A DNA stretch of 64,000 nt from Methanolobus chelungpuianus (GTDB lineage Archaea; Halobacteriota; Methanosarcinia; Methanosarcinales; Methanosarcinaceae), in the NCBI RefSeq assembly GCF_024500045.1, contig NZ_JTEO01000005.1, forward strand, positions 124,001 through 188,000, written 5' to 3'. A program made the position numbers and the translations under genes. Each line of letters opens with the position of its first letter. Positions within the stretch are counted from its first letter, which is position 1. The notes beneath the pieces are model-generated. The model had not been told where the DNA came from and ran no database searches. It worked only from the letters and a program-made list of their open reading frames with translations. Positions 22,101 through 41,777 of the stretch are shown in pieces.

Positions 22101-22769
22101 ATGTCTGTTCAGGTATCAACTGATTTTCTGAGAATGCTTGAAGGAAAGAGCTCAATTTTCTTTCACCAAGAGCCTGCACTGTGCCCTAAACCACTGACAG
22201 ACATCATTAACGGCATTGGGACAGCTTTTGCTTTGCCCGTGATCTGCATGTACTGGAGTGAACAGACAGAACAGCTCACATATGGCCTGCAGACAGCTCC
22301 CGCAATGTTCCCCGTCTCAAGGGATTTCACAGCCACCCTGATCAGGCTGGGAAAACTGCTTGCCGAACAGCAGTATATTATCGTGGTCCACGGCCTTGAC
22401 GAGATGGCATTTACTGTTGACGGAAGACCTTTATGTAAGTTCATCGGCATCCTTGCTGACAAGTGCAGCGGGAGGCATTCAACTATGCTGGCAGTCTCCC
22501 GTAATCCGCACCTGGATGAAGAGTACGGCATCGACACACGCCACCTGTTTGATAACAGGTTCAGGATAGAAGGGAGCACGATCCGGCAGGTGGGACCGGA
22601 CGGCCATACATTATCCGTTTATGATCTCTTTGGTGAGAGGCAGGCGGCAGCAAAGCCGGTGGGTACAGACATGGAGAAAATAAGAGAGATATTCAGACTG
22701 ACGCCTGAAGAACAGAAAGAACTGGACAGGATTGCAAACAATAAACTGAGGGATCTCAACATACGATGA
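22101..22769 (+). CDS. DUF835-like protein of the motility island
   Basis: This 222 aa soluble protein has no Walker A motif. It has a Walker B-like strand and loop, YIIVVHGLDEMAF, followed by LCKFIGILADKC, TMLAVSRNP and HLFDNRFRIEG. This arrangement resembles DUF835, a RecA-like domain without ATP-binding loop found in archaeal sensory proteins. The C-terminus is charged and helical (LTPEEQKELDRIANNKLRDL). It converges on the MinD/ParA gene. Membership in the island is inferred from position and from kinship with RecA/KaiC-type domains. Moderate certainty on the fold. Confidence 0.5.
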   Translation: MSVQVSTDFLRMLEGKSSIFFHQEPALCPKPLTDIINGIGTAFALPVICMYWSEQTEQLTYGLQTAPAMFPVSRDFTATLIRLGKLLAEQQYIIVVHGLDEMAFTVDGRPLCKFIGILADKCSGRHSTMLAVSRNPHLDEEYGIDTRHLFDNRFRIEGSTIRQVGPDGHTLSVYDLFGERQAAAKPVGTDMEKIREIFRLTPEEQKELDRIANNKLRDLNIR

Positions 22770-22803
22770 CCTTTGACCGCGACCGTTGAATCACGCGGGA
22801 TAA

Positions 22804-23526
22804 TCATATCAGTTTTTCTGCAATTGACTTCAACTGCGCACAATAGGCACAGTCCGGTTCATCCTCCATTACGAGCTTACGTGACCAGGCACGCGCTACC
22901 GAATTATCATAAGTCATTGATCCCAGGAGCCTGATGCCAAGCTTTTTGCTGAAATCCTTTACCACTTCATCTATCTCCTTCTGCTTGTCGGCAGGAGTTC
23001 TGTTGAAAAGCAGGTAGGTCCTGGTCCCAAGCTTTTCCGCCATACTGGAAAGAATGTAGGTCCCCCTGATATCCTGCACATCAATGGTCGAGATAATGGT
23101 AGCCCTGTCGGCAATGTTCATAGCCAGCAGGCTTGACCTGTTAATTCCGGGGCTGCAATCGAAAAGGAAGTGATCGATGGAGAATTCACGTTGGAGGGTA
23201 TTTATAAGCTCAAGTATCTTCCCCCTTGCCTCCCCGGGCGTATCGAACATCGTGACAATATCTTCCTCACATGCCTTCGAAGGTACTATATAAAGATCCT
23301 TGTTGCCGTACCTGTAAACCACATCAGATGGCCTGCATGTCCCCTGCAGGAAATCAACAAGTGTCATGTCATACCTGATGTTGAAGAGTGAGTGCATACC
23401 TGGGCCGTTAACGTCTGTATCAACTATGCATACCTTTTCCCCGCGTGCCGACAACAGGGCACCCAGATTTCCAACAAAGGTGGTTTTTCCCGTGCCTCCC
23501 TTGTATGAATGAAAACTCAGCATCAT
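22804..23526 (-). CDS. MinD/ParA-family ATPase
   Basis: This 240 aa protein has the deviant Walker A KGGTGKTT (residues 9-16), the Asp switch in IVDTDVNGPGMHS, Walker B-like FLFDCSPGINR and a C-terminal CAYC pair. MinD/ParA ATPases form ATP dimers that place cell structures; haloarchaeal MinD4 is known to position archaella and chemoreceptor arrays. It lies 5 bp downstream of a coiled-coil wHTH gene in a two-gene operon. No membrane-targeting helix is obvious at the end. Role in placing the archaellum or array is inferred. Confidence 0.85.
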   Translation of the reverse strand: MMLSFHSYKGGTGKTTFVGNLGALLSARGEKVCIVDTDVNGPGMHSLFNIRYDMTLVDFLQGTCRPSDVVYRYGNKDLYIVPSKACEEDIVTMFDTPGEARGKILELINTLQREFSIDHFLFDCSPGINRSSLLAMNIADRATIISTIDVQDIRGTYILSSMAEKLGTRTYLLFNRTPADKQKEIDEVVKDFSKKLGIRLLGSMTYDNSVARAWSRKLVMEDEPDCAYCAQLKSIAEKLI

Positions 23527-23531
23527 TTATC

Positions 23532-23948
23532 TCACCCCAGCAGCTGGTCAAGCTTGTTCTCCACTTCCTCAACCACAGACCACTGGTCATCCCTTGCAGT
23601 CTCGTCCCTTCTCTTCATGGAGTAGTATATCTTTTTACCCTTCCTTTCCCTTTCCAGCCATCCGCCCCTGTAAAGCTCATTGAGGTACTTGTTCTCAATG
23701 GACCTGTGCCTGCCGGTAACAACGCTTACGTCATCTGCTGTGCAGGACTTGAGATTAGAGACAGCAAACAGTGATTTACGGATAGAGTCCGGGACTGTCA
23801 GAAAAACAGCCATCTTGTCATCTATCTGAGAGGGGGAATATGTTTCGATCCTGGACAGGCGCATCTCCAGAGAAGACAGGCGCCTATTTAAGTCCTCCAG
23901 AGCCTCTATAAGACTGGTTTCATTGTACAGGTCAGGCATGGTCATCAT
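23532..23948 (-). CDS. Coiled-coil plus winged-helix protein
   Basis: This is a 138 aa protein. Residues about 8-40 form a coiled coil (ALEDLNRRLSSLEMRLSRIE). A winged helix follows at about 55-115 (LKSCTADDVSVVTGRHRSIE, then LERERKGKKIYYSMKR), and then a second helix. It is upstream of and operonic with the MinD/ParA ATPase. It may be an autoregulator or the DNA/partner-binding adaptor for that ATPase, by analogy with ParA-ParB pairs (inference). Confidence 0.7.
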   Translation of the reverse strand: MMTMPDLYNETSLIEALEDLNRRLSSLEMRLSRIETYSPSQIDDKMAVFLTVPDSIRKSLFAVSNLKSCTADDVSVVTGRHRSIENKYLNELYRGGWLERERKGKKIYYSMKRRDETARDDQWSVVEEVENKLDQLLG

Positions 23949-24118
23949 CGTTTATTGTGCTTATACTACTATGTAGAAATTTAATAGTTGTGATAATATA
24001 TAAGTTTGATTAATTGAGCAACAGAAAGGCGCAGGCAATTCCTTTATCCTGTTAATTGCAGGTCCAATATTCGCGATAAATATATAAATAAGTGCAACGT
24101 AAAACACCTGGAGAAAAG
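23949..24118. promoter_or_regulatory. Divergent promoter region
   Basis: This AT-rich gap separates the wHTH-MinD operon (minus) from the KaiC-like gene (plus). TAAATATATAAATAAG at about 24075-24090 is a TATA box about 30 bp before ATG 24119. TATATTATCACAAC read on the minus strand (about 24000-23987) could serve the other side. Confidence 0.5.
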
Positions 24119-24808
24119 ATGCGAAGTTCAGCTTTCGTAAAAGGACTTGACGATATCCTCTGCGGAGGATTCATCCTGCCTTCAAACATCCTTATTGCAG
24201 GGTCCGCAGGCTCAGGTAAGACTAATCTCTGCCTTCAGTCACTTTTCAATGCATCTAAAGTAGGAGAGAGATGCGCCTACATATCACTCCTGTCAGGATC
24301 CAGGGAAAAGATAATCCTGACCACGCGCCAGCTGGGCTTTTTCGATCAGGAGGTACTTGCTTCCGGAATGCTGGCCATACACTCCATCAACACGGATATC
24401 ATTGCCAAAGGGGACTTCTCCGTTTTTGAATATATCACCGAGCAGGTGCTGAGCACTTCTCCCACAAGAGTGGTGATAGACACGGTCACAACCCTGGAAG
24501 CAATAGGCAGCACTTTCGAGGAAAGAGAGTTCAGGGGATGTGAGTTAAGGGCTTTCGTGCACAACCTGTTCCAGGAATTTGAAGACCGGGGCATATTGCT
24601 AATGGTCACAGGAGAAATACCACACGGGTCCATTACTGTTAGCCCATGGTCATATATGGTGGACACTATCCTGTCCCTTGAAAGGAACACAACTCTCCAC
24701 GGGCTTGAGAGACATCTGGAAGTCATTAAGATGCGCGGCAGTGACTTTATACCGGGCAGGCATCCTTTTGTGATAGGTCCGGAAGGGATCGAGATCCTGA
24801 AAAAGTGA
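24119..24808 (+). CDS. KaiC/ArlH-like RecA-family ATPase
   Basis: This protein is 229 aa from ATG 24119, chosen because GGAG lies 5-6 nt upstream and the TATA box at about 24080 excludes the GTG at 24092. Walker A is AGSAGSGKTN, Walker B RVVIDTVTTLE, and the KaiC-type opening is FVKGLDDILCGGF. The single RecA domain is the size of ArlH (FlaH), the ATP-binding protein at the base of the archaellum, but no arlI/arlJ follows. It may be a regulator that competes with or modifies ArlH (inference). Confidence 0.8.
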   Translation: MRSSAFVKGLDDILCGGFILPSNILIAGSAGSGKTNLCLQSLFNASKVGERCAYISLLSGSREKIILTTRQLGFFDQEVLASGMLAIHSINTDIIAKGDFSVFEYITEQVLSTSPTRVVIDTVTTLEAIGSTFEEREFRGCELRAFVHNLFQEFEDRGILLMVTGEIPHGSITVSPWSYMVDTILSLERNTTLHGLERHLEVIKMRGSDFIPGRHPFVIGPEGIEILKK

Positions 24809-24820
24809 CCCCTGGATAGT

Positions 24821-25603
24821 TCATGCACACAGAGTTTCCAGAAATTGCTCTATCTCTTCTGAAAGTTTCCTGTCCAGCAGGTGTCTTGAAGTGGTCAGGT
24901 ATCGCTCAAAAGTAACGATGTCATCCCTTGGGATGGACTTACCCATATTTGATCTGAACCTGAGGGACTCATAGGAATCTATCAGCTCGGGCATGACCAT
25001 ACGCGGATAGTTCCCGGCAAGCTGCCTCAGAAGAAGCCTGGCTTTCGGATATGGCAGTATCAGATGGTCCCTGTAGCGAAGTGACACTGTACAGTCAGTA
25101 TCGCATATAGTGTCAAACATGAGCCTCTGCCTGAAGAAACGGGCAGCTCCTGGGTTATCAGGTTTTGTTACCACATTTGAATATAAATGTCCGGCAGCAA
25201 TGGCAAAGAGCAGCCTGCCCACACCCATGTTCCTGAACGAAGGATGCACCTCAATGCTGCGCAACAGATGAACAGAGTGCCTGACAAGACTCTTTTTCCC
25301 CCTGTGAATTTTTTCAAGATTATCAGATACCTTCTCGAATCTTGCAAACCCAAGCATCCGGCCGCACGTATCAAAGGAAACGAAAAGCGGGTGACCTGAG
25401 GAGACAGAAGACCTCATCAGGAAGTCATAAGGCATACCAAAATTGTTATGGAAATAATTGAAACCCGGCGCTCCTGACTGGCCTACCTCTATCCTGAGGC
25501 CTTCAAGGGCTTCCTCGGACTCCAGCAGACCGTACGACACAGTACCGGCCCTGTGCAATACGCTGATCCCCTTTACACACATTTTCCCGTACCGTTCTTT
25601 CAC
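24821..25603 (-). CDS. GNAT-fold acetyltransferase-like protein 1
   Basis: This 260 aa protein has a GNAT core: the LGFARFEKVSD strand, IEVHPSFRNMGVGRLLFAIA with the acetyl-CoA loop R-N-M-G-V-G, then FRQRLMF. The start GTG overlaps the stop of the coiled-coil gene by GTGA, so it is last in the long minus-strand operon beginning at the CheF-like gene. A related protein sits at 31124. It probably acetylates a protein Lys or N-terminus; the partner is unknown. Confidence 0.7.
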   Translation of the reverse strand: MKERYGKMCVKGISVLHRAGTVSYGLLESEEALEGLRIEVGQSGAPGFNYFHNNFGMPYDFLMRSSVSSGHPLFVSFDTCGRMLGFARFEKVSDNLEKIHRGKKSLVRHSVHLLRSIEVHPSFRNMGVGRLLFAIAAGHLYSNVVTKPDNPGAARFFRQRLMFDTICDTDCTVSLRYRDHLILPYPKARLLLRQLAGNYPRMVMPELIDSYESLRFRSNMGKSIPRDDIVTFERYLTTSRHLLDRKLSEEIEQFLETLCA

Positions 25604-27192
25604 ACGTTGGCCAGCTCTCTCAAGGTGAAATAGGTATATCTCCCCTTCTTGAAAGACACCAGCAGTTGTGACTGTTCCATCCGGTCCACAATAGCTGAGA
25701 GCTCATCGGCACCTATGGGAGCGCACATGGAGCCTATCTGGCCCTCCAGCTGCTTCAGGGTCACAGGGCCACCACTCAGCTCTTCAATGATCACCTGCTC
25801 AATATGTCCCGGTGAGAAAGCATCAGCATATATCCCCTCAACAGCATCCTGAACAGTATCCGGAGGACAATCCTGTACCCTGTTAGTTCCATCAGTCGGT
25901 GCAGATCGGAGTTGCTCCAAGTCTTCACGTACCTTCAGGATATCTGCATGGGCGAGCCGGGCCTTTTCCGCATCCTCTGATGATCGCTGTATCTGTTGCT
26001 GCATATTTGCAAGGGTCTCGTTGACCTCTTCCCGGAAAGAGCCAATTGCTTCGGAAATTAGCATCATTTCGTCCCGGTTAGCTTTTAAAGACAGGCTCTC
26101 CGCAATTAAAGCCATGTCCTGCAAAGGAGCCTGCATGGGAGCGCCAGGAGCTGTAAGTGCCTGGCTGCGGGTTTCCTCAATGTCCTTGCCCAGTTTCCTG
26201 AGTGCTTTCGTGTGCAGGTTCACTGCCTTTGCGATGCTCTTTATCTGATCCTGTATCCCTTCAATGCCCTTGGAGTATAACTTTGCATCCTCCAGCTGGT
26301 TGTTCTGGAGCTCTGCCATGAACTGCATATTCTCTGTCAGGTTCGTGAGCTCCTCAGCCAGACCGGACAGCTGCGAGGATATCCTTTCAATGGACCTTTC
26401 ATGGGAGACAACTTTCTGGACTGTGTATTCCCTGCTTCCTGTCTCGACGAAGGACCTGAAGTCCTGAGAGCTGTAATTGGGCACTGCCTGGGAGAGGATC
26501 TTGAAAAGCTCGATATAGGTTGCATGGATCTGCTTAATGGAAACCAGCTTGGAAGATACCGCGTCTGAGAGCCCTTTTACCAGGAACACGCCGTTCTCGA
26601 ACCTGAAGAAGTCCACTCCTGCGCTGAACTGGCGGACCTTGTCCCTGGTATCCTCCACGATCTGGGAGGATTCCCTGTCACCGAATATGTTCAGCATGGA
26701 CGCATAAAGGTCGTTCAGAGTCTTTGCATAGGTGATCTCAAGTACATCAGGCGGGACCTTTGCAGCATCAAGGGTCTCTGCACTGAGCGAGTCCTCCGCC
26801 CTTACGATCCTTCGGAGCCGTTTGGAGAAAATATCGAAATCCCTTCTAAGCTGCCTGAACTCTTCCTGGCCGGACATCCGGGACATCTCATCATGGATCT
26901 GAGAGAGAGAACCTTCATGTTCACTGAGCCCCTCATTAACCTTAGCCTGCAGTTCTTCGAACCTTCTTTCGAAGAATCCGAGCCTTGCCTCCAGCTCCTC
27001 ATAACAGGGGACTTTTGAAGGTGCTTCCATATCCTGTTTATTGCAGGGATCATCGGGCTCTTCGGAGCATATCCCATGGAATTCCCGTCCCTGATCCGGA
27101 CATTCCGGAGAAGTATTATCGTAACTGTCAGACCCACGCTCATGGGAGTGATTCTCTTCCGCTTGTGTTCCGGCAACTATTTCACTGCTCAT
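25600..27192 (-). CDS. Long coiled-coil protein with C-terminal winged helix
   Basis: This is a 530 aa cytoplasmic protein. It has an acidic low-complexity N-terminus (about 1-65), coiled coils at about 70-135 and 265-420, a helical middle (SAGVDFFRFENGVFLVKGLS), and a winged helix at about 465-530 (FSPGHIEQVIIEELSG, KKGRYTYFTLREL). GGTGGTG precedes ATG 27192. It sits between the Roadblock and GNAT genes. The shape suggests a scaffold like ArlC/D/E of the archaellum cytosolic ring, but the ArlD/E domain itself is not seen. Function unknown. Confidence 0.65.
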   Translation of the reverse strand: MSSEIVAGTQAEENHSHERGSDSYDNTSPECPDQGREFHGICSEEPDDPCNKQDMEAPSKVPCYEELEARLGFFERRFEELQAKVNEGLSEHEGSLSQIHDEMSRMSGQEEFRQLRRDFDIFSKRLRRIVRAEDSLSAETLDAAKVPPDVLEITYAKTLNDLYASMLNIFGDRESSQIVEDTRDKVRQFSAGVDFFRFENGVFLVKGLSDAVSSKLVSIKQIHATYIELFKILSQAVPNYSSQDFRSFVETGSREYTVQKVVSHERSIERISSQLSGLAEELTNLTENMQFMAELQNNQLEDAKLYSKGIEGIQDQIKSIAKAVNLHTKALRKLGKDIEETRSQALTAPGAPMQAPLQDMALIAESLSLKANRDEMMLISEAIGSFREEVNETLANMQQQIQRSSEDAEKARLAHADILKVREDLEQLRSAPTDGTNRVQDCPPDTVQDAVEGIYADAFSPGHIEQVIIEELSGGPVTLKQLEGQIGSMCAPIGADELSAIVDRMEQSQLLVSFKKGRYTYFTLRELANV

Positions 27193-27207
27193 TATGGCAC
27201 CACCGCA

Positions 27208-28023
27208 TTATACGAACGACTCCAGTTTGCGCCTTATATCGGGTATCCACTCGGCCTCGCACATATCAGCAACATAGTCCCCATGCAGAGGACGTATCTG
27301 GTCCCTGATTATCATTTCCACCAGTAATGGCCACAGATCCTCCGTCATCCACTTAGGGGATGATGCGATCTCATTGAAAGCCATGGCAAGCGCAGGCTCC
27401 ACTTCGCCCCTGCCCATGACACCGGTGATCTTTTCCTTGATGTCGGCAAGTATCTCCATGTTCTTCTTGTATTCTGAAGACTGGGTGTACATCTCATTGA
27501 ACACTACCTTGGCAAGTATGCGCAACTCAGAGGCCACCTCATCAGAATAATTAGACAGCTGGTCGGCAGTCATAGGACGCTGCTCGAATACATGCTGTAT
27601 GACCTCACGTGCAACCTGTATCTTATGCATGTCATCCGAAAGGTCGGCCTTGCCGGTGAAAAGGGATATGAGTAACGCACCTCTCCCCACAGAGGAGAAG
27701 ATCACAGTGCCGAAATCGTATTCTATCACTGACTGTTTCAGCCCCATGGCAAGCTGCTGGCTTACGTGCAGGAGGTTGTTGCTTATGAGATTTGTCAGCT
27801 CGAATATCTTGGGGCCTATGCTTTCCGGGATGTAGGAGGCATATATCCTGCCATCAGCGCCTGCAAACAGCAGTACGTCAACATCACTGGACTCGTATGT
27901 CCTTTTAAGCTGCGAGACCAAGGCAAACTTCAGGAGGGATACGTCTTCCAGATCATCCTTTGTCTTTTTAACCGCCAAGTTTACCACATCTGTAATACTA
28001 CCGGACCATTTCTTCCAGGTCAC
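27208..28023 (-). CDS. Roadblock/LC7-type domain protein
   Basis: This protein is up to 271 aa. Residues about 45-125 follow the Roadblock pattern: VDVLLFAGADGRIYASYIP, VIEYDFGTVIFSSVGRGALL. The C-terminal half is helical and unrecognised. Roadblock proteins regulate small GTPases and scaffolds in archaea and bacteria (MglB-like). The proposed GTG start at 28023 overlaps the KaiC gene by 26 bp; GTG 27987 or TTG 27978 would avoid this and are equally possible. No Ras-like GTPase is present in the window. Confidence 0.65.
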   Translation of the reverse strand: MTWKKWSGSITDVVNLAVKKTKDDLEDVSLLKFALVSQLKRTYESSDVDVLLFAGADGRIYASYIPESIGPKIFELTNLISNNLLHVSQQLAMGLKQSVIEYDFGTVIFSSVGRGALLISLFTGKADLSDDMHKIQVAREVIQHVFEQRPMTADQLSNYSDEVASELRILAKVVFNEMYTQSSEYKKNMEILADIKEKITGVMGRGEVEPALAMAFNEIASSPKWMTEDLWPLLVEMIIRDQIRPLHGDYVADMCEAEWIPDIRRKLESFV

Positions 28024-29059
28024 GGAGACTGTCTATCTCTATTAGGCCTTCATCCTCGCCTTTCAGGTCTGCGCTAATATCGGGCTCAGAAGCCCTGGAT
28101 GACAGTTCCCTCAGGTCGAGCTGAATATCGGAAGGTATGCTTTCCTCTTTCCTGCGGGCGATCTCATCCCTGGTAAGAGCATCAGTGAGCCCCTGGGATT
28201 CGAAGAATATCTGCAGGGTCTCCTTGGGAGAGAATGGGTATGACCAGTTCTCCCTGACATACGCAAGGCGTTCCAGCACAATCTCACTGGCGCCAAGGTC
28301 CGCAGCGGTCCTGATGGCCTTATTGAACAGGTCATCATACTTGCGCATATCCTCTGCAGATACCAGCGGGGTGGTGCGCACAACGACCCCTATACCGCGC
28401 ACGAAAATGTAGGGATAGACTTCCTCACCATGCCTTGTCGCACGCATCTTAACGATCTCCAGCGCCCTGTTGAAGGCGCCTCCTATGGGACGGTAGGTCA
28501 GGTGGACCGCGCCGTCTGACATGTAGATAGGTATAAGCACATCCTCACCGATGGTCTCACCGGGAGCCGCATGCTCTTCGGTTGTTATCAGCACAGGGCC
28601 CAGCTGCTTGAGCGTATAGAACAGCTTGGTGATTATCTCGCGCTGTTCCTGCTTATCCTGGATAGCCCATGTAAGGGGTGTCAGCGGATCGATCACCACG
28701 CGGGTCTTCACCGAGAAGTTCTTGTTCATTTCCACAAGAGCCGGCAACTGCTCATCCACCAGTTTAACAAAATCCTTACCCTTGGAATGGAAGAAGAACA
28801 GCTCTTTTTCGTAATACCTGTCAAGATTGAAGCCAAGCATCTTGGCTTCCCGCAGTATCTGTTCAGGCGGTTCTTCCATGCTTATGTATAAACCGTTCTC
28901 ACCATGCTCCAGGCCATAGTTCAGGTACTGCATTGCAAAAGTGGATTTACCGGTACCGCTTGAACCGACCACGAGCAGTGTGGTGTTATCCCTGACCCCG
29001 CCCTCGATGACCCTGTCAAGGCCTGCAATCCCGGTTGGGATCCTTCTCTCTCTGCTCAT
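27998..29059 (-). CDS. KaiC-family ATPase with C-terminal extension
   Basis: This 353 aa protein has one KaiC domain: IPTGIAGLDRVIEGGVRDN, Walker A GSSGTGKST (residues 32-40), YISMEEPPEQIL, Walker B RVVIDPLTPL. Beyond residue 240 there is an unusual charged extension with IEIDSLRDLEEMVR at the end. GGAGG precedes the ATG, which overlaps the stop of the LSm-like gene (ATGA). It probably hexamerises and signals through ATP state; in the island it may be the energy- or time-sensing core (inference). Confidence 0.85.
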   Translation of the reverse strand: MSRERRIPTGIAGLDRVIEGGVRDNTTLLVVGSSGTGKSTFAMQYLNYGLEHGENGLYISMEEPPEQILREAKMLGFNLDRYYEKELFFFHSKGKDFVKLVDEQLPALVEMNKNFSVKTRVVIDPLTPLTWAIQDKQEQREIITKLFYTLKQLGPVLITTEEHAAPGETIGEDVLIPIYMSDGAVHLTYRPIGGAFNRALEIVKMRATRHGEEVYPYIFVRGIGVVVRTTPLVSAEDMRKYDDLFNKAIRTAADLGASEIVLERLAYVRENWSYPFSPKETLQIFFESQGLTDALTRDEIARRKEESIPSDIQLDLRELSSRASEPDISADLKGEDEGLIEIDSLRDLEEMVR

Positions 29060-29391
29060 TCACATGCCTCCACATCAAGAGTCTCAGGCTCGATAGCCTT
29101 CAGTTCCCCCATTTCCACAGAGAGGATAAGGGATTCATTACCGTCGAAGGGGAAGCTCTTCTCGACATAAATGGCTTCGATAGAAGCACCCATTATAAGC
29201 ATGTGGTCGCTTATGTCCACCCAGCCCACATCATTCTTCCTGACGACCTTTTTCAGCAGTATGTTACTGGTCTCTGTATCCATCCCTGCGCATTCCCCTC
29301 TGTAATGCGATGATCGCGTGATAACGCGGACCATCTGGCCGATAAAGCCAGATAGACAATCATCCATGAGTTTCCTTTTGGAGCCGGACAT
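29056..29391 (-). CDS. LSm/Sm-like small protein
   Basis: This 111 aa protein has FIGQMVRVITRSSHYRGECA, then DTETSNILLKKV and MLIMGASIEAIYVE. The spacing matches Sm1 (G-x-x-V-x-V...G...D-x-x-x-N-I-L-L) and Sm2 (I-x-G-x-x-I-x-x-I). The final ~25 residues are acidic. Sm folds usually bind RNA or act as ring adaptors. It lies between V4R-like and KaiC genes, with an ATGA overlap to the latter. The fold call is by motif reading only. Confidence 0.5.
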   Translation of the reverse strand: MSGSKRKLMDDCLSGFIGQMVRVITRSSHYRGECAGMDTETSNILLKKVVRKNDVGWVDISDHMLIMGASIEAIYVEKSFPFDGNESLILSVEMGELKAIEPETLDVEACE

Positions 29392-29404
29392 TCTCTAACC
29401 TCTT

Positions 29405-30322
29405 CTAACCTTTTTTCATCTTAGCCATCAGTTCGGCAAAACTGTCTGCTTTCCTGGCTTCTTCCTGTATCTTCACGTTCTGCTGCGATGCAGCCTGGCT
29501 GGCAGGCTGCGGGGGCACAGGAGTTGTGGCCTGGACCTTTTGGGCCATTGCACCGAAAGCTGACCCAAAGGTATTATGGGAGGATGCTATGGATGCCAGT
29601 TCTTCCCGGGTTTTCCATGGCGGGTCGAAGATCTTCTCCTGTTTTTTCATATTCGCTGCGAACTGCATGTAGGCATTACCGATCTCGGAAAGCCTTCCGC
29701 TGTCCAGCAGCTTGTATATCGTCAGGGCCCTGACCCTTTCCACAAGTTCGTTCTCATTTACCGGGGGCCTTATACCCGAAAGTATCATCCTGTCATGCTC
29801 GTCCAGCAAGACCTGGTAAGCGGATATGGGCTGCAGGGACACCTTGAACCTGCAGACATGGTTACCGTTCTTGATACACTCGATCTCCTCCACCGAGCAT
29901 TCAAGTTCAAGCTCCTCAGTAAAGAACCTGTGCAGGGCATCTGTGGTGGCAACACATACTTTCTGATTGTTCAGGGCAGGATAACAGTTGCATACCGGAT
30001 TATTGGGAACTGCAAAAACGTAATTCATCGGAGCGTAGGAGATAAGCTGCATGGCCCCCAGGCCTGCTTCGGAGAACAGCCTCACATGGAAGTTATAGAG
30101 AGCTGTAGCCTTTATGGCATCTATTGTGAAGGCTTTGAGGAATTTGCGGGTCTCACTCCAGGGGACCTTTGCCCTCGGGAATCTCTCGCTGATATTCTGC
30201 TGTATCTTGAGCAGTGCGCCAAAGGCACCCATGGATTGTGCAAAGCTGCCATCGTTCATCGAAGGCACTCCGCCGGGTGAAGCGGTCATAAATGGTGGCA
30301 GACCGGGAGGCATGTCACTCAT
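29405..30322 (-). CDS. V4R-like (4-vinyl reductase fold) sensor protein
   Basis: This is a 305 aa cytoplasmic protein with a Pro/Gly-rich N-terminus. A V4R-like domain covers about residues 45-170: CNCYPALNNQKVCVA, then FFTEELELECSVEEIECIKN and HVCRFKV, the Cys-x(n)-C-x-x-x-G-x-x-x-C ending typical of V4R. The rest is a helical Ala/Gln-rich tail. V4R domains bind small hydrophobic or heme-like ligands in archaeal and bacterial sensors. GGAGGTG precedes ATG 30322. Second gene of the CheF-led operon. Confidence 0.6.
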   Translation of the reverse strand: MSDMPPGLPPFMTASPGGVPSMNDGSFAQSMGAFGALLKIQQNISERFPRAKVPWSETRKFLKAFTIDAIKATALYNFHVRLFSEAGLGAMQLISYAPMNYVFAVPNNPVCNCYPALNNQKVCVATTDALHRFFTEELELECSVEEIECIKNGNHVCRFKVSLQPISAYQVLLDEHDRMILSGIRPPVNENELVERVRALTIYKLLDSGRLSEIGNAYMQFAANMKKQEKIFDPPWKTREELASIASSHNTFGSAFGAMAQKVQATTPVPPQPASQAASQQNVKIQEEARKADSFAELMAKMKKG

Positions 30323-30364
30323 AAAGCCACCTCCGCAGCAGGAAATGTTACAGAGCGATACACC

Positions 30365-30952
30365 TTACATCATCTCCATTATCTGTTTCTTGCCTTCTTC
30401 CGTAAGGGTTCCTGAATTGTCGCACAGTTTCTGGTCCCTGAGGCTCTTGAAACTGTCTGCCAGGGTCTGGCTGTCAGCCCCGGTGAAAAAGGCAAGTTTT
30501 TGCAGGTCGTTGACACCTGTATACAGCATATACAGTAATTTCTTATCAATATCGGAAAGTGACTGTTTCTTTGTGGGTGTCCCGCATATAGGCTGCAGGT
30601 ATGTTTTCAGGGTGTTTATCACAGCCTCGTTACCTGCAAGTAGCGCCACGGCCGGCGTTGTCGCACCTTGTATCACGCTGGACGCCTGTACATAGTCGAT
30701 AATAAGCACATGGGAAGTACCTATGGCCCTTTGGGCCTTCATTTTGATAGAGTCCGTAACTTCCCTGCCGATCATGGTAATATTCTGAAGGGGTATCGTT
30801 GACCAGCCACCGCCCTCCGAGAACCACAGATTGAGATTGGTCAGGTAAAGTACACCTTTTTCCCAGTTATCCGAATACAGGGAATTACCCATCATCACAG
30901 CCTTGAAAATATATGTCAGATCCACTTTTGCTATGCCCTGCTCTTGAGCCAT
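30365..30952 (-). CDS. CheF-like taxis adaptor
   Basis: This 195 aa protein has an N-terminal PH-like module (KGVLYLTNLNLWFSEGGG, STIPLQNITMIGREV) and a C-terminal winged helix (KLLYMLYTGVNDLQKLAFFT, LADSFKSLRDQKLC). This is the two-part plan of archaeal CheF (DUF439), the adaptor that joins phosphorylated CheY to the archaellum switch. It is shorter than typical CheF (about 280-300 aa). No che genes are in the window. It leads a seven-gene minus-strand operon. Confidence 0.65.
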   Translation of the reverse strand: MAQEQGIAKVDLTYIFKAVMMGNSLYSDNWEKGVLYLTNLNLWFSEGGGWSTIPLQNITMIGREVTDSIKMKAQRAIGTSHVLIIDYVQASSVIQGATTPAVALLAGNEAVINTLKTYLQPICGTPTKKQSLSDIDKKLLYMLYTGVNDLQKLAFFTGADSQTLADSFKSLRDQKLCDNSGTLTEEGKKQIMEMM

Positions 30953-30979
30953 CAGACCACACCATGAGACTTAATCAGT

Positions 30980-31080
30980 AGAATATAATATATTATAATA
31001 ATTATAATTAAACTAGATATAGTCATACGCATATTAATAACCTTCTATATGCAAAATAATATAAAAATAATTTAAAGAGC
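30980..31080 (-). promoter_or_regulatory. AT-rich promoter of the CheF-led operon
   Basis: On the minus strand this contains CTTTAAATT (31077-31069) and ATATATTATATTC (about 30995-30982), both TATA-like. The second is about 30-40 bp before ATG 30952. It marks the border between the upstream GNAT-HDAC genes and the CheF operon. Confidence 0.45.
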
Positions 31081-31123
31081 AGACTTTGCCAGGACTATGA
31101 CTGCGGACAGCCAGCCGGCTAGA

Positions 31124-32041
31124 TCAGGCAGCTTTTCTCACTGGAAGGAAATAGCGCTCCCTGCCACAGGATGAGCAGATGAAAGCAGTTCCGGGTTTAG
31201 GCCCGCCCTGCAAGAACTTGCCTGCCATGTTCTCGCCGCACTCGCAGGAAGACAGCATTTTCTGGTTACCGATGAACTCTCCCCGGAGGTCCAGCCGTAC
31301 AGGCGTAGAGGCATCAGGCACCAAAGACACTTCATTACTGCTGCGATCTTCACATATAGTGTGATCAGTACCTGCAGTACCATCGGTTGTGTTCTCAGGG
31401 GCAACAGATGCCTTTTTCAAGCCCCCTGCCTTGACATCGGATGCAATGGCAGACCGGGTCCTACCCTTTGATGCAGGATATTCGCCCGGGAACAGTTTCA
31501 TTCTGCACTGCTCTGTCCGGTCCTGGGTCACATGCATCCTTTCCAGGGACAGGCCAGACTTTGAGCCCTCATCCAGCAAAAGATAACCGGGGTGGTCTGC
31601 AAGTCCGACGGGACAGTTCTTTGCAGGAAGAATGAAACTCAGGGAAACGAAGAAGTTTTTAGCATTTGCATTAACGGGTTTTGTGATAATGTGACCCGGG
31701 AGTATCCTGGAAATAAGAGTGAACAGAGTTCTTCCAAGTCCTTTGCTGGCCAGTTGGGGAGAGACCTCTATCGCACGAAGTACAAAGACGGGCCTTCCGT
31801 CAGTCGAAGGCTTACTCCAGCTCTCATTCATGGACCAGCCAACGATCGACTTTTCCAGCACCGCGACCACAAGATATACATTAGGCCTCTTGAGCCAGCT
31901 CCTGAAATTAGCCATATAGTCGGACATGCCCAGGTGCTTTTTAAAATAGGTGAATTCCCCGATCCCCAGCTTGTCCAGCTCGAAGGCATGCTCAAGTAGA
32001 TAGAAATGCACTCCGTCCGAGTTTCTTGCGATCTCGATCAT
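31124..32041 (-). CDS. GNAT-fold protein 2 with zinc-ribbon tail
   Basis: This protein is 305 aa, starting at 32041 (MIEIARNSD) with an ATGA overlap to the preceding deacetylase gene. Residues about 15-160 resemble a GNAT domain and the other GNAT protein at 24821: RAIEVSPQLASKGLGRTLFT, then HIITKPVNANAKNFF. The CoA loop reads ASKGLG, missing the usual Arg/Gln. A variable linker and a zinc ribbon follow, C-E-C near residue 270 and C-S-S-C about 20 residues later. It could be active, or a binding module derived from GNAT. Confidence 0.65.
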   Translation of the reverse strand: MIEIARNSDGVHFYLLEHAFELDKLGIGEFTYFKKHLGMSDYMANFRSWLKRPNVYLVVAVLEKSIVGWSMNESWSKPSTDGRPVFVLRAIEVSPQLASKGLGRTLFTLISRILPGHIITKPVNANAKNFFVSLSFILPAKNCPVGLADHPGYLLLDEGSKSGLSLERMHVTQDRTEQCRMKLFPGEYPASKGRTRSAIASDVKAGGLKKASVAPENTTDGTAGTDHTICEDRSSNEVSLVPDASTPVRLDLRGEFIGNQKMLSSCECGENMAGKFLQGGPKPGTAFICSSCGRERYFLPVRKAA

Positions 32042-33087
32042 ATAGCATCGCCCACCTTGCATAGCCGAGGTTTACCGATATTCCAGTAAGGGCTTAGTAC
32101 AAACTTCAGTCTTGATAGTTTTTCATGGAACTCCCTTCTTGTATTGACATGCCGGGATGCAAGCAGGTCTATCTGGTCGACTTCATCCGGGATAGTCCTT
32201 CTGCCCATAAGCCCGTCAAGGACGACCGCAGAGAGCATGCCAATATCCTCGTGATAGCCTCCCTCCAGCAGGCAGACGACTTTCCACCGGCTGGCAAGAA
32301 GACCGATTATATGATAATAGCCGTCCACTGTAAGGTCCAGCTGGGACAGAGGCTCCTTGTAGTAGGCGTCGAAGCCACACTCCAGAATGACGATATCCGG
32401 CTTGAAATCCTTAAGCACCTCCTCAATAATCTCTTCAAAAAGTATTGCATACTCCGTATTTCCGGATCTGGGAGGCATCTCCATGTTGATGGAAAGACCG
32501 AGCGCCGGACGGATGCCGATATCCCTGATGAAACCATTATAAGGATAGAAATTCGAAGGGTCCTGATGAACGGATATGCACAGCACCTGCGGGTCGCCGG
32601 AGAATATGGCGTGAGTGCCATCGGATGCGTGTGCGTCGATGTTCAGTATTGCTATCTTCTGTGTCCCGTAAGAGTGTTTAAGAAATCTGGCAAGGATGGC
32701 AGAATTGTTGAATATGCAGAATCCTCCGGAAGTAGTTGCTCCTGCATGATGTCCCGGTGGACGCACCAGAGCAAATGAATGGTCACATGCTCCGCATGCT
32801 ACAACATCCCCTGCACGGATCACAGCACCTGCTGCCTCGAGAAGTACTTCGAAAGAGCCTTCGCAGAGATAAGTATCCTTACCGGGGCTTTTGCGGGACT
32901 GACTGATGCATTGCACTACGCTGTCAACATACTCCTGCGTATGGACCCTCAGTATGTCCTCCATGGCAGCAGGTTCGGACATGAACATAAAGCATCTTCC
33001 ATCATCCAGATACCTGTTCAGGGAGAGGTAGTCAAGTATCCTGTCCAGCCTCGATGGATTCTCGGGACCCGGATACCCGTTGAGCAT
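32038..33087 (-). CDS. Histone-deacetylase-family hydrolase 2
   Basis: This is a 349 aa arginase/deacetylase-fold enzyme. The whole zinc site is present: RPPGHH (His113, His114), LNIDAHASDG (Asp151, His153), ECGFDAYY (second Asp) and LLEGGYHE (catalytic Tyr). It is therefore probably an active lysine or polyamine deacetylase. The N-terminal segment NHHLHDP and GYPGPENPSRLDRI aligns with the family start, yet the first part lies upstream of ATG 33087 with no canonical start; translation may begin at ATA 33138, 5 nt after GGTG (see findings). Overlaps the GNAT 2 start. Confidence 0.85.
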   Translation of the reverse strand: MLNGYPGPENPSRLDRILDYLSLNRYLDDGRCFMFMSEPAAMEDILRVHTQEYVDSVVQCISQSRKSPGKDTYLCEGSFEVLLEAAGAVIRAGDVVACGACDHSFALVRPPGHHAGATTSGGFCIFNNSAILARFLKHSYGTQKIAILNIDAHASDGTHAIFSGDPQVLCISVHQDPSNFYPYNGFIRDIGIRPALGLSINMEMPPRSGNTEYAILFEEIIEEVLKDFKPDIVILECGFDAYYKEPLSQLDLTVDGYYHIIGLLASRWKVVCLLEGGYHEDIGMLSAVVLDGLMGRRTIPDEVDQIDLLASRHVNTRREFHEKLSRLKFVLSPYWNIGKPRLCKVGDAI

Positions 33088-33147
33088 GGGATCATGCAGA
33101 TGATGGTTCTTATTGCAGGTCAGGCCGACACGGACTATTGTAACACC

Positions 33148-35013
33148 TCACGCGAGCAGCGGTATGACCTTTTTCACTTCTGCGACCTTGGTCATGGTCT
33201 CTGCGAATATCCTTTTCTGCTGGTCCTGCTTATAGCTTGAGAGACCCAACTGGTCCGTTACAGGGTTTGGCTTGCCCTGAAGGGCACTCAGGACACTGTG
33301 GCAAAGCTGCCCGTTAAAATCGTGATATCCTCCCTCCATCAGCAGCACGATGCCACCACGATAAGCGGACCGGAGCCTGGAAGCCATCCCGTGGAAGCCT
33401 TCGGATGTCAGGTTCAAACCTACATTCTTTTCCCTGTGATGAGCGTCAAATCCGCAGGAACATATCACGAACCCCGGTGCAAAGCGCTCGATGAGTGGCA
33501 CTACAACCTCATCAAACGCAAACATGTATTCCTCGTCACCTGCACCCTGCGGCATCTCAACATTGACAGAATACCCTTTCCCTGCACCTGTCCCCGTCTC
33601 CTTCGTGTAACCCCGCCTGGGATAGAATCCATGCGGGTCGCGATGAAGGGAAACCGTAAGCACAGTGGGGTCCTCGTAGAATATCTCCATGGTTCCGTCT
33701 CCTGCATGCGCATCCCAGTCAAGTATCAGTATCTTCTCGATCTTCTTCACAGCCTGAAGATATCTCGCAAGGATGGCGGCGTTGTTGAAAAGGCAGAACC
33801 CGCCATATCTGCTCCTGCTTGCATGATGGCCTGGAGGCCTTGTCATCACAAAGGAGAAGGAATATCTATTGCCCGACACCAGGTCACCTGCTTTGATTGC
33901 AGCCCCCGCGGAGAGTTTTGCAATGTCGTATGAGCGGGGTGTGATGTAGGTGCTATCCCCCAGGAAGCCGCCGCCGTTTGAGGCATAGTTGCTCACAAAA
34001 CGGATGTAGGATTCTTCATGGGCTCTCAGGATATCCTCTTCTGATGCCATGGGCACATCATCCAGGAATGTGCAGTGACTGTCTTCAAACACGTGGCTCT
34101 TCTCGAGGTACCACATCGCCTTTATTATCCTGTCAGGAACTTCAAACGTCCTGACCGACAGAACGGAAGGATCATGGTCAATATGCTTGCGGTTGTAGAT
34201 AAAAGCCACATTTCCCGCAGCAAGCTCTTCGGCAGAAGATACCTGCGCTTCCCTGAGACAATCATTGTCAGGAGTTCCAGCTCCTGCTGTCTTCTTTTGA
34301 TGAATGGCTGCTTTATGCTTCTTTGCAAGCATGATCTGATCAGCAGGGAGAGAGGACTTGGGCTCAGACAGAGCAGGCCCATGTGCATAAAAGGAAACAG
34401 CAGTTGAACCCGTAGAGGGCAGTGGATCGTATTTATTGAAAGCCGTATTCCTGCAAGTGTCCTCATCTGAAACATGCACTTTGCCGGGAGCAATGCTGTC
34501 ATCGGTCTTGCATAGTCGCCTTTCAGCAGGTCTTTCAGAGATGGGACCAAGCACTGTCGCCACCGGTCGATGTGGGACGGTCTTCAGAGCCTCAGCCACT
34601 ATTGCTGCATATACATGATCGTCCTCGTTCACGAGTGACCCGGCTTCCTTTCCGGAGAGATCAATGTCGACTGACTGGAACTCTACTTCCCTGAAAGCAT
34701 CCGAGAAAATTGATGGCTCCACTTGAACAGGGGCCTCTTCTATGGATACCACTGCAAGCTTTGAACGGGCTTCGGTCCCTGGCTGGGCTTCAGCGGAACT
34801 ATCCCCTATAACATCTCCCACATCAGAGATATGGCCAGAGCCAATATCTGCTTCGATCTCTTCCAATATCTTTGCGACCTCACGGGAAGTCTCAGCCAGT
34901 TCAGAACCGGGATGCCCATTAAAGTAGGAGGACATGACATCATTGAGCAGCTTCCGGGCATCTTTCTGCCCATTATCCTGCCTCCATGTTTCATCTTTTT
35001 GAGCCGCAGACAT
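33148..35013 (-). CDS. Histone-deacetylase-family hydrolase 1 with long N-terminus
   Basis: This is a 621 aa protein. The first ~265 residues are an acidic, low-complexity extension. The deacetylase domain follows: YNRKHIDHDPS, TRPPGHHASRSRYGGF (His396, His397), LDWDAHAGDG (Asp434, His436), CSCGFDAHH and LLMEGGYHDF. All zinc and catalytic residues are kept. The extension might tether it to a partner. It is 24 bp after the CARDB lipoprotein gene and just before deacetylase 2, which is a paralogue. Confidence 0.88.
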   Translation of the reverse strand: MSAAQKDETWRQDNGQKDARKLLNDVMSSYFNGHPGSELAETSREVAKILEEIEADIGSGHISDVGDVIGDSSAEAQPGTEARSKLAVVSIEEAPVQVEPSIFSDAFREVEFQSVDIDLSGKEAGSLVNEDDHVYAAIVAEALKTVPHRPVATVLGPISERPAERRLCKTDDSIAPGKVHVSDEDTCRNTAFNKYDPLPSTGSTAVSFYAHGPALSEPKSSLPADQIMLAKKHKAAIHQKKTAGAGTPDNDCLREAQVSSAEELAAGNVAFIYNRKHIDHDPSVLSVRTFEVPDRIIKAMWYLEKSHVFEDSHCTFLDDVPMASEEDILRAHEESYIRFVSNYASNGGGFLGDSTYITPRSYDIAKLSAGAAIKAGDLVSGNRYSFSFVMTRPPGHHASRSRYGGFCLFNNAAILARYLQAVKKIEKILILDWDAHAGDGTMEIFYEDPTVLTVSLHRDPHGFYPRRGYTKETGTGAGKGYSVNVEMPQGAGDEEYMFAFDEVVVPLIERFAPGFVICSCGFDAHHREKNVGLNLTSEGFHGMASRLRSAYRGGIVLLMEGGYHDFNGQLCHSVLSALQGKPNPVTDQLGLSSYKQDQQKRIFAETMTKVAEVKKVIPLLA

Positions 35014-36034: not shown

Positions 36035-36763
36035 TTATTTATTTTTATTATGCCTGATTATATATAATGCTGTTGCGCCGAGCATGACCTCAACCAGTAT
36101 CAGAAGCGGGAGGAAAAGGCGGTGCTCATAGAAGGGCTCTTCCTTTATCCAGACGATGGATGCTGATTCTATTCTCTGCACGTCACCGATCATATAGGAA
36201 GTAACACCACTTTCCCCTTTTAGCAGGATTTTGTTATCCTGTTTTGTTAAAGTAGCATTCTCAAGCCCGTCATAAGTAACAAGCCCCACACCTGCAGGGA
36301 GTACAAACCTGACTTCCTCAATACGGTACTCTCCGAGCACCCATATTTTGTGCTCACCTGAAGAAAGTGTGGAATTGAGCAGATAAAGTATCTTCGTGGC
36401 CACATTCAGGTCAGAGCCATCCAGGGAGCCTGCGGCATCATTGAACTCCATTTCTATAGACTCAATTGACAATCCTACTGATCCGTCATCCACTGCAATG
36501 TATTCCAGGAATTGTTCTCCACCATTTGAAAGATAATGCTCCTTGAATAACTCGATCTCGGATACGTTAATGTTCCCATCATTATCCGCATCGAGGTTTT
36601 CCCTGAAAGCCAGGGCATCTTCAGAGGTATAGGTCTCACCCACAGTAAAGATGATCTTGTCATCATACAATTCAATATAATTGGTAAAGGAAACCTCTGC
36701 CGAGACAGTTGCAGTGAGGCAGCAGCATATGATCAGGAATAAAAGAATGTTCTTTGTGCTCAT
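36035..36763 (-). CDS. Secreted membrane protein with EF-hand-like loop
   Basis: This is a 242 aa protein from ATG 36763 (signal peptide LLFLIICCCLTATVSA), with GAGGG upstream; an earlier in-frame ATG at 36799 is inside the archaellin end. It has a calcium-binding loop DADNDGNINVSE near residue 60, beta-rich extracellular segments, and one C-terminal helix (LPLLILVEVMLGATALYII) with a basic tail. It follows archaellin 1 by 32 bp. Role unknown; a surface partner of the archaellum is possible. Confidence 0.65.
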   Translation of the reverse strand: MSTKNILLFLIICCCLTATVSAEVSFTNYIELYDDKIIFTVGETYTSEDALAFRENLDADNDGNINVSEIELFKEHYLSNGGEQFLEYIAVDDGSVGLSIESIEMEFNDAAGSLDGSDLNVATKILYLLNSTLSSGEHKIWVLGEYRIEEVRFVLPAGVGLVTYDGLENATLTKQDNKILLKGESGVTSYMIGDVQRIESASIVWIKEEPFYEHRLFLPLLILVEVMLGATALYIIRHNKNK

Positions 36764-36795
36764 ATCATCCCTCGTAAAAATTAGAAGGGTCCAGT

Positions 36796-37581
36796 TCACG
36801 GATAGAGCTGGATCGCTTCTTTGGTACCATAAGACGACGGGGTTAAAAATGTAGCCATTGTCGTTGCACCGGATTCAGGTGTCAGTACTATTGTTACATC
36901 AGTACGCGGACCAATGTCAAGATTGGAGTCCTTTTGGTTGCCAGCTGTAGAGACATCACCGATGGTAGTGAACGAAAGGTCGCCATCAGAGACAGTGGAT
37001 ACATAGATAATTGCAAGATCTCCCGTGTTCATGATGGGATTCGCCTGAGTGAAAGACATGTCCTCATCCCTTATCTTCTGTACAGTGAAGAAGTATCTTG
37101 CATTATGGCCCGGCGTTGCCTGAGTGTTCTCAATCAAGGCTTCCAGGTTATCCAGTGCATTGCCACTTGATGAGAAGTTGCTCATCGGACTGCCATATAT
37201 TCGGTCGTTGTCAGCGTAAAGCAGGTCATTGGTATTCGCCCCATCAGATATTGTAACTATCAGCTGGTTAAGGTCCACCGGTGAGCTTCCCACATTAAGA
37301 CCAACCCGTATCTTCAACAAAGAGACGTTGCCTGCTATATCGGTAGCATTGTTCTTTGCACGGACACCCTCGATGTTCTTGACTATGAGGTTCGAGGAGA
37401 CCTCCTGGGTTGCCTGCTTGCCCGTGGACTGGGCCTGCTGCTGAAGAATTCCGGAAGTCTGGATAAGCACAGAAGCAGCTACCGCAGCAATAAGCACCAT
37501 AGCAATGAATATAATAAGCGTGCCGATGCCCACCTGGGCTCTAGTGTCGTTTAATATCCCGGCATTTATTCTTACCTTCAT
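36796..37581 (-). CDS. arlB: Archaellin 1
   Basis: This 261 aa archaellum filament protein has a class III signal peptide. The sequence ...[19 protein letters not shown] should be cut by the ArlK (FlaK) peptidase between Arg and Ala, leaving the hydrophobic assembly helix. The C-terminus keeps the archaellin ending SSYGTKEAIQLYP. GGAG lies about 9 nt before the ATG chosen (37581); another ATG at 37590 is too close to GGAG. Second of the archaellin 2-1 pair. It is the most divergent of the four copies. Confidence 0.92.
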   Translation of the reverse strand: MKVRINAGILNDTRAQVGIGTLIIFIAMVLIAAVAASVLIQTSGILQQQAQSTGKQATQEVSSNLIVKNIEGVRAKNNATDIAGNVSLLKIRVGLNVGSSPVDLNQLIVTISDGANTNDLLYADNDRIYGSPMSNFSSSGNALDNLEALIENTQATPGHNARYFFTVQKIRDEDMSFTQANPIMNTGDLAIIYVSTVSDGDLSFTTIGDVSTAGNQKDSNLDIGPRTDVTIVLTPESGATTMATFLTPSSYGTKEAIQLYP

Positions 37582-37616
37582 GAAGACCATCTCCAGGTAA
37601 AAGGAATGGCGTGCAG

Positions 37617-37639: not shown

Positions 37640-38401
37640 TTACGGATATAACTGAACAGTTTCCTTAACACCGTAGGATGAAGGAGTTACGAACTCAGCG
37701 ACTGTTGTAGCACCGGACTCTGGTGTAAGAACTATGTTCACAGTAGTCCTTGGAACAAGATCCAGTTCAGATGATTGAAGATCCCCTGTAATGGATCCGA
37801 TATCAGGAAGGCTAGCCGAAGTAGGCGATATCGTTGCAATGTTCACCATGATCAGATCACCGGTATTCATAACGGGGTTGGCCTGAGAGAATGAGCCATC
37901 TTCATCGCGTATCTTGTCCACTGTATAGTACTTAGTAGGGTTTCCTGAAACGGTAAGTAACTTCTCCAGGTTTGCAGCTGCAGTAGCAGTACCATCGAAA
38001 TCGGTCATAACGGAATCATATGATTTGTCATTACCTGCGTACACAAGGTTGTGTGCGACAGTACCATCGGTAATAGATATAACTACCTGATTCACATCTA
38101 CAGGAGCACTGCCTACGTTAAGACCAACTGAGAGCTTGAGAAGATCAATGGTTGATGACAAAGTACCATTGTCTTTTGCACGTACTCCCTCTATATTCTT
38201 GACCATCAGGTTGGATGAGACTTCCTGGGTTGACTGCTTACCGGTGGACTGGGCTTTCTGCTGCAGTATCCCGGATGTCTGAATCAGTACGGCTGCCGCG
38301 ACAGCAGCGACGAGCACCATGGCGATGAATATGATAAGGGTACCGATACCCACCTGGGCCCGGGTGTTAATACTCATTGAGAGTGTTCTGTTTGCTTTCA
38401 T
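37640..38401 (-). CDS. arlB: Archaellin 2
   Basis: This is a 253 aa archaellin from ATG 38401, with AGGAGG 7 nt upstream; the TTG at 38407 is too near. The signal [14 protein letters not shown] is followed by [20 protein letters not shown]. The ending [16 protein letters not shown] is the same as archaellin 4. Leader and first codons are near-identical to archaellin 4, pointing to segmental duplication. It is the first gene of the cassette transcribed leftwards. Confidence 0.93.
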
Positions 38402-38562
38402 GTACAATCCTCCTATTATCCAGATTAGTGGATAGTGAAAATTATATATAATTTAAATATATATAACATTTGGTTGGAAATGTCAAACTGCAAACATCAC
38501 CTTTTTGTAGTATAAGAATATTAATATATAATATTAAATTAAAAAAAGGACCTGATAGAGAT
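38402..38562. promoter_or_regulatory. Divergent promoter of archaellin 2 and the 7-TM gene
   Basis: This AT-rich region has TATA-like stretches for both directions (about 38440-38462 on the minus side, 38521-38545 on the plus side). It contains a 35-bp segment at 38461-38495 that recurs exactly at 41743-41777. Inside that segment, CATTT-GGTTGG-AAATG forms a small inverted repeat. Confidence 0.6.
38461..38495. repeat. 35-bp repeat, copy A
   Basis: Exact match to 41743-41777, in the same place relative to an archaellin and a 7-TM gene. It is either a conserved control element or a relic of segmental duplication. The flanking DNA differs more, which favours selection on this segment. Confidence 0.9.
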
Positions 38563-41684: not shown

Positions 41685-41742
41685 GTACAATCCTCCTATT
41701 ATCCAGATTATTGGATGTTATTATTATATAATTAATTAATAT

Positions 41743-41777
41743 ATATAACATTTGGTTGGAAATGTCAAACTGCAAAC
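41743..41777. repeat. 35-bp repeat, copy B
   Basis: Exact copy of 38461-38495, in the divergent promoter of archaellin 4 and 7-TM B. Confidence 0.9.

Follow-up and report, generated by a model that had tools for sequence, protein, structure and literature searches.

An island of genes beside the archaellins of Methanolobus chelungpuianus is, with fair probability, an alternative CheF module which couples a chemotaxis (Che) system lacking CheF to the archaellum of AQVGIGTL type found in Methanolobus and its relatives, and it probably both replaces and extends the canonical CheF link. The island lies in a stretch of 64,000 nucleotides, here called the window (G000:C5:124001-188000, where G and C labels denote genomes and contigs and G000 is the 2.6 Mb Methanolobus genome itself), and its first row of genes places a short CheF homologue in line with genes for V4R, LSm-like, KaiC, Roadblock and coiled-coil proteins. 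The coupling role is suggested by homology, complementary distribution and gene linkage. The route from chemotaxis to the motor in archaea is known only for canonical CheF, of which the solved structure has a C-terminal domain that binds CheY-P and two PH-like domains thought to face the archaellar C-ring (PMC9126983). The first row, given in window positions, is composed of:

30365..30952, minus strand: short CheF, with one PH-like domain and a CheF-type C-terminal (putatively CheY-binding, winged helix-turn-helix (wHTH)-like) region
29405..30322, minus strand: V4R ligand/redox-sensor domain protein (PF02830, 32.1 bits, cut-off 31) with a conserved Lys-rich C-terminal motif, SFAELxxKMKK
29056..29391, minus strand: LSm-like small protein (Sm D3 profile match), with a 4-nt overlap with KaiC
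27998..29059, minus strand: KaiC-family ATPase (PF06745, 158.7 bits) with a conserved acidic C-terminal tail motif
27208..28023, minus strand: Roadblock/LC7 protein with a C-terminal helical extension (PDB 9jue profile match and Foldseek matches to MglB/Roadblock)
25600..27192, minus strand: acidic, length-variable coiled-coil protein with a conserved core and a C-terminal wHTH (alignment of 14 orthologues)
24821..25603, minus strand: GNAT acetyltransferase 1 (GNAT1; PF00583, 26.4 bits)

Homology of the short CheF was analyzed with hhalign, comparing 15 island proteins with four Methanosarcinaceae CheFs taken from CheW-CheF-CheY loci; residues 12-190 of the island protein matched residues 91-259 of CheF with a probability of 97.2 and an E-value of 2.9e-11. 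The aligned part of CheF comprises its second PH-like domain and its C-terminal region, ending at residue 259 of 266. Because it only spans residues 91 to 259, the island protein, which is 195 aa long, is without the first PH domain and so does not have the two tandem PH domains of CheF. A Foldseek search with the model of the short CheF (pTM 0.53) returned PH-like folds, and matches to Pfam PF04283 were weak and below the cut-off in all 15 orthologues. On profile evidence the gene called CheF-like in an earlier reading of this DNA (the sequence-only reading) is a true CheF homologue, with one PH-like domain and a predicted CheY-binding tail region, and it is the sole CheF-type gene in those island genomes which retain a Che system. 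The description of this protein as a mere PH plus wHTH combination unrelated to CheF was ruled out by the same comparison with real CheF. A second PH-plus-wHTH family was also observed: at L126:9059-10261 (G069:C1) a 400 aa tandem protein holds two copies of the unit found in the short CheF and adjoins genes for KaiC and a probable histidine kinase, making up a second CheF-related KaiC module; similar tandem proteins occur in G065, G089, G095, G124, G135 and several g5/g3 genomes.

The distribution of canonical CheF in Methanosarcinaceae genomes was determined with a family-alignment profile and a threshold of E < 1e-145, which replaced a census with Pfam PF04283 that proved too insensitive, having missed the CheF genes of G019, G024 and G053 that the family profile found. 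Canonical CheF was present in 12 genomes and the island in 33, with an overlap of 0; the residual matches to the CheF profile in island genomes ranged from E ~1e-14 to 1e-7, the top match being the island gene, and direct profile search found the short CheF in 32 of the 33. Strong ArlCE matches were obtained in 47 Methanosarcinaceae genomes, 38 of which carry CheW. These 38 divide into 33 with the island and five with canonical CheF, none having both and none neither, and the nine ArlCE genomes without CheW have neither island nor canonical CheF. Loss of CheF through loss of the whole Che system was ruled out, since the Methanolobus genome itself encodes CheW, CheA, CheB, CheC, CheR and CheY. 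In the five archaellated genomes with canonical CheF, CheW adjoins CheF, and in G097 this CheW/CheF locus serves a second, short-archaellin archaellum. Taken with the G097 locus, the distribution suggests that the island goes together with a CheF-less Che system and the AQVGIGTL-type archaellum.

Gene linkage points in the same direction. The Che cluster of the Methanolobus genome (C4:616093-623232) encodes CheY, CheB, CheA, CheC and CheR without CheF, and its motor operon, running from ArlCE to ArlJ (C4:406638-412995), contains no archaellin of the window type; the four full archaellins of this genome are all in the window. In the complete Methanosalsum genome G004 the island lies between the archaellum genes and the CheF-less Che operon, as ArlCE, the archaellins, two membrane proteins of the archaellin operon (mem36 and mem35), a deacetylase-fold hydrolase (HDAC2), a second GNAT acetyltransferase (GNAT2) and the short CheF form one stretch, which continues with V4R, LSm, KaiC, Roadblock, the coiled coil, a histidine kinase, a methyl-accepting chemotaxis protein, CheW, CheY, CheB, CheA, CheC and CheR. 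In M. natronophilum (G099) a pair made up of the short CheF and LSm genes has been relocated to the contig with ArlCE, archaellin and Che genes, and V4R, KaiC, Roadblock, coiled coil, GNAT2 and HDAC2 remain together elsewhere.

Several other genes of these loci were recorded. Between CheC and CheR in the Methanolobus Che cluster (G000:C4:620275-622395) is a 706-aa protein whose start resembles the actin/Hsp70 fold (PilM/FtsA-like), and which the che operon of Methanosalsum does not have. The motor operon carries, upstream of arlCE (L080:7505-10437; G000:C4:402505-405437), genes for a GvpD/KaiC-like ATPase, a REC-fused protein and CheY, a set that possibly corresponds to the KaiC-REC fusion which has been reported from six genera of Methanosarcinaceae (PMC5847659). 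A long second ArlCE-like protein of 932 aa, with FlaC and Arch_fla_DE domains at its C-terminal end and conserved in Methanosarcinaceae, is encoded apart from the motor operon at L082:2421-5219 (G000:C4:437421-440219). An odd archaellin-like protein of 288 aa with an insert is found away from the other archaellins (L129:9850-10716; G000:C2:429850-430716), and the related proteins of G004 and G099, of 355 and 359 aa respectively, are encoded near the long ArlCE-like gene.

A number of observations weigh against the coupling role. The short CheF is missing a PH domain that canonical CheF has, and the protein of the window scores 17.7 bits against the PF04283 gathering score of 25. Some of these genomes have the second PH-plus-wHTH family (~400 aa, tandem), which could take part in the same role. 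The single-contig Methanolobus genome G111 keeps ArlCE and CheW, and a deletion (L069:3940-4843) has removed its short CheF along with the N-terminus of V4R. Canonical CheF in archaellated genomes may serve a second, short-archaellin archaellum, as shown for G097, in which case exclusivity may reflect two archaellum systems and not replacement in place. The genomes are moreover related, which inflates the counts; at genus level the match of island and Che stands at five genera versus three (Fisher p 0.018). Finally, non-motility is given in the descriptions of some of these genera.

Gene order around the island was compared across 20 relatives, with up to 20 kb on either side, spanning five genera which include Methanolobus, Methanomethylovorans, Methanosalsum and Methanohalobium (some of the genus labels being probable only). 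All genes named in the sequence-only reading were recovered, without exception, in the window with the same coordinates and strands, and Pfam supports the KaiC proteins (27998-29059 and 24092-24808), ParA/MinD, V4R, the two histone-deacetylase-fold proteins, GNAT and archaellin. The conserved unit extends beyond 22101-35013 and takes in the archaellins as well as a wHTH gene and two genes for multi-pass membrane proteins, reaching up to 42.6 kb. Its second row is composed of:

31124..32062, minus strand: GNAT acetyltransferase 2 (GNAT2; PF00583, 20.2 bits, cut-off 20.7) with a C-terminal CxCG/CxxC zinc-ribbon-like motif
32038..33087, minus strand: histone-deacetylase-fold hydrolase 1 (HDAC1; PF00850, E 1.1e-77)
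33148..35013, minus strand: histone-deacetylase-fold hydrolase 2 (HDAC2; PF00850, E 5.2e-82) with an N-terminal extension of ~290 aa
35037..35984, minus strand: membrane protein of the archaellin operon (mem35; gene order conserved)
36035..36799, minus strand: membrane protein of the archaellin operon (mem36; gene order conserved)
36796..37590, minus strand: archaellin 1 (PF01917)
37640..38407, minus strand: archaellin 2 (PF01917)
40079..40858, minus strand: archaellin 3 (PF01917)
40908..41690, minus strand: archaellin 4 (PF01917)

Across the five genera the first row keeps the order short CheF, V4R, LSm, KaiC, Roadblock, coiled coil (and GNAT1), and the second keeps the order GNAT2, HDAC1, HDAC2, mem35, mem36, archaellins. 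V4R, KaiC, Roadblock and the coiled coil are found in all 20 relatives, GNAT1 is missing from the island in Methanosalsum, and HDAC1 is missing in four genomes; identity across genera is 70-96% for Roadblock and 67-93% for KaiC. The ATGA/GTGA overlaps described earlier are exact, each of four bases, between KaiC and LSm at 29056-29059 and between GNAT1 and the coiled coil at 25600-25603, and the former recurs in most relatives. Contigs extend far enough for the archaellin side to be judged in 19 genomes, Methanolobus chelungpuianus included, and in 18 of these the archaellins adjoin the island. The island is therefore a real conserved unit and not a chance grouping, since 20 genomes from five genera repeat its gene order, spacing and overlaps, whereas the flank is not found beside it in four genomes. 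It is very improbable that ancestral linkage alone accounts for this, with unrelated signalling genes left beside the archaellins through vertical inheritance within one family: the carriers found are indeed all Methanosarcinaceae, and a search of 295 genomes of the phylum found Roadblock in none outside this family, but the flanking genes are not retained, the operon overlaps are conserved, and in the broken-up G099 locus the short CheF and LSm stand together at the archaellum locus. The genes of the variable flank are:

22101..22769, plus strand: accessory fast-diverging protein (20-49% identity across relatives; no Pfam/NCBIfam match)
22804..23526, minus strand: accessory MinD/ParA ATPase, 240 aa (PF13614, 58 bits)
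23532..23948, minus strand: accessory wHTH protein paired with MinD (Pfam scan and synteny)
24092..24808, plus strand: accessory small KaiC (Pfam KaiC), carried by Methanolobus and by two Methanomethylovorans-group genomes

These four are classed as accessory because they are missing beside the island in G004, G014, G087 and G143, which belong to four genera. The MinD/ParA-wHTH operon that was said to adjoin the island is thus present in the window, and synteny ruled out MinD as a core part. The label of ArlH-like ATPase was wrong for the small KaiC at 24092-24808, as the true ArlH is encoded in the motor operon at G000:C4:408948-409643 and matches another ArlH far better than it matches either island KaiC. 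The proposal of a sensory and positional module for motility survives in its sensory half, given the motility linkage and the co-occurrence with archaellin loci. Its positional half, in which an MglB-like Roadblock, the acidic coiled coil as a polar landmark and MinD/ParA would place the archaellum or the chemosensory arrays at the pole, now seems quite unlikely. Myxococcus and Thermus MglB are among the top Foldseek matches of Roadblock, the coiled coil is long, acidic and variable in length in the manner of polar scaffolds, and MinD is nearby in Methanolobus. Against this, Methanosalsum, Methanohalobium and some others have neither MinD/wHTH nor the small KaiC next to the island, the island encodes no MglA-like GTPase, and among the results obtained here the sole pointer to a polar location is the general MglB likeness of Roadblock. 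MinD4 has a long C-terminal extension, for which the MinD of the window leaves no room, being a ParA/MinD core of 240 aa.

In the V4R protein of the island, Cys123, Cys149 and Cys157 are present in 21/21 sequences with spacings of 26 and 8, which is the spacing of the DmpR zinc site, where zinc is held by Cys151, Cys177, Cys185 and a Glu (PMC7264223). V4R also matched a model of MsvR (E 1.4e-6), a redox-sensing protein of methanogens (PMC3729527), and V4R domains are known to bind hydrophobic ligands (PMC2253512); a profile search of the PDB with V4R gave no useful match. The Walker motifs of the KaiC at 27998-29059 are intact, with Walker A and the Asp invariant among orthologues, and its ArlH score of 51.7 against 215 bits means that it does not qualify as an ArlH orthologue. 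A hub role for KaiC in archaea was reportedly proposed by Makarova in 2017. Roadblock, for which there was no Pfam match, matched the solved Roadblock/LC7 protein PDB 9jue (Roadblock3) by profile with an E-value of 3.4e-4, and Foldseek on its model (pTM 0.46) returned MglB of Myxococcus and Thermus and Asgard Roadblock at E 4e-5 to 1e-3. The LSm-like protein matched Sm D3 (E 7.7e-4), its Pfam LSM-clan matches being below the cut-off for the window protein, and the coiled-coil family ranges from 481 to 1018 aa.

If the island does couple Che to the archaellum, phospho-CheY would dock on the tail of the short CheF, whose PH-like domain, alone or through a coiled-coil/Roadblock scaffold, would contact the cytosolic ring of ArlCE. 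We would guess that V4R senses a hydrophobic ligand or the redox state, and that ATP hydrolysis or autophosphorylation of KaiC on an assembly of Roadblock, LSm and V4R might gate the signal. It is likewise a guess that the GNAT/deacetylase pair, which would be co-produced with the filament subunits, reversibly acetylates lysines and in this way tunes the module or the targets on which it acts; the V4R tail SFAELxxKMKK could be one candidate. A bolder proposal, which we hold to be unlikely, is that KaiC, Roadblock, V4R (related to TRAPPC3/Bet3), LSm and the coiled coil form a new signalling complex around the CheF homologue, in which ligand or redox state and acetylation would bias the archaellar switch independently of CheA.

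HDAC1 and HDAC2 have the class I/II histone-deacetylase fold, and its catalytic motifs (the His pair, DxH, Asp and Tyr) are present, with the exact variants differing in a few orthologues; the catalytic motifs of HDAC2 are kept, and the Cys motif of GNAT2 is present in 19/19 orthologues listed. No paper connecting the archaellum with deacetylases or with the acetylation of lysines came up in our literature search. Each of the two archaellin operons is preceded by an identical 40-bp element, GTTTGCAGTTTGACATTTCCAACCAAATGTTATATATATT, which runs into a TATA-like stretch. Its 26-bp core has only these two sites in the genome at <=3 mismatches (0 sites for the reversed control), and variants of the element precede archaellin genes in Methanolobus, Methanohalobium and the Methanomethylovorans group. 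The elements and the genes diverging from the archaellins are:

38456..38495, minus strand: putative 40-bp archaellin operator/promoter element, copy 1 (identical to copy 2)
41738..41777, minus strand: putative 40-bp archaellin operator/promoter element, copy 2 (identical to copy 1)
38563..39369, plus strand: multi-pass membrane protein a (~7 transmembrane segments, judged by eye), divergent from archaellin 2 (alignment with membrane protein b and orthologues)
39360..39724, plus strand: wHTH protein after membrane protein a (same pair in Methanosalsum)
41841..42647, plus strand: multi-pass membrane protein b (~7 transmembrane segments, judged by eye), divergent from archaellin 4 (alignment with membrane protein a and orthologues)

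Judging from the spacing, transcription of the deacetylase and GNAT2 genes would also start from the archaellin 2 promoter, and the wHTH protein at 39360..39724, or the membrane protein-wHTH pair to which it belongs, is a candidate archaellin regulator. Such features suit a hub for expression or assembly in place of switching, with the KaiC, V4R and wHTH domains timing the archaellin operons and the acetylation enzymes maturing the filament or its assembly factors. This alternative, which we regard as improbable, gains from the plentiful wHTH domains (in the short CheF, the coiled coil and the protein at 39.4 kb), from the unique operator common to the archaellin operons, from the position of the deacetylases and GNAT2 close behind the archaellins, and from the effect of the Haloferax KaiC homologue CirA on motility and cell shape (PMC13286277). 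It does not, however, predict that archaellated genomes without CheW should have no island, nor does it sit well with the match of the short CheF C-terminal domain to the CheY-binding tail of CheF or with the contiguity of the island and the che genes in Methanosalsum. Elsewhere in the window, at 56536-58431 and 61812-63695, two near-duplicate multi-pass membrane proteins of 627-631 aa were observed in a surface-polysaccharide-like region.

Should the coupling role hold true, the short CheF with KaiC, Roadblock and V4R would constitute a natural rewiring experiment and provide a hypothesis for the role of archaeal KaiC-Roadblock sets, and the acetyltransferase/deacetylase pairs inside the archaellin operon would make lysine acetylation in archaeal motility directly testable. 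Compared to archaeal CheF (PF04283), the island protein has a homologous PH-like domain and C-terminal region and likewise occurs in genomes with Che and archaellum, namely those without canonical CheF, with linkage in Methanosalsum to che as well as arl genes; it differs in having one PH domain in 195 aa instead of two, and in belonging to an operon with KaiC, Roadblock, V4R and LSm, whereas canonical CheF lies between CheW and CheY. The island V4R resembles the V4R sensor domains of DmpR, MopR and PoxR and of MsvR in that its cysteines are spaced as in the zinc site of DmpR and in its similarity to the MsvR model, but it is without an AAA+ activator part and does not match the remainder of MsvR, its partners being separate proteins. 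With MglB and the Asgard Roadblock proteins the island protein has the Roadblock/LC7 fold in common, and it differs from them in an extra C-terminal helical half and in the lack of a cognate small GTPase in the island. KaiC and Roadblock genes are known from archaeal archaellum and type IV pilus loci (PMC4858521) where, as here, both stand beside archaellum genes; what sets the island apart is that a single conserved operon unites the two with V4R, LSm and a homologue of CheF.

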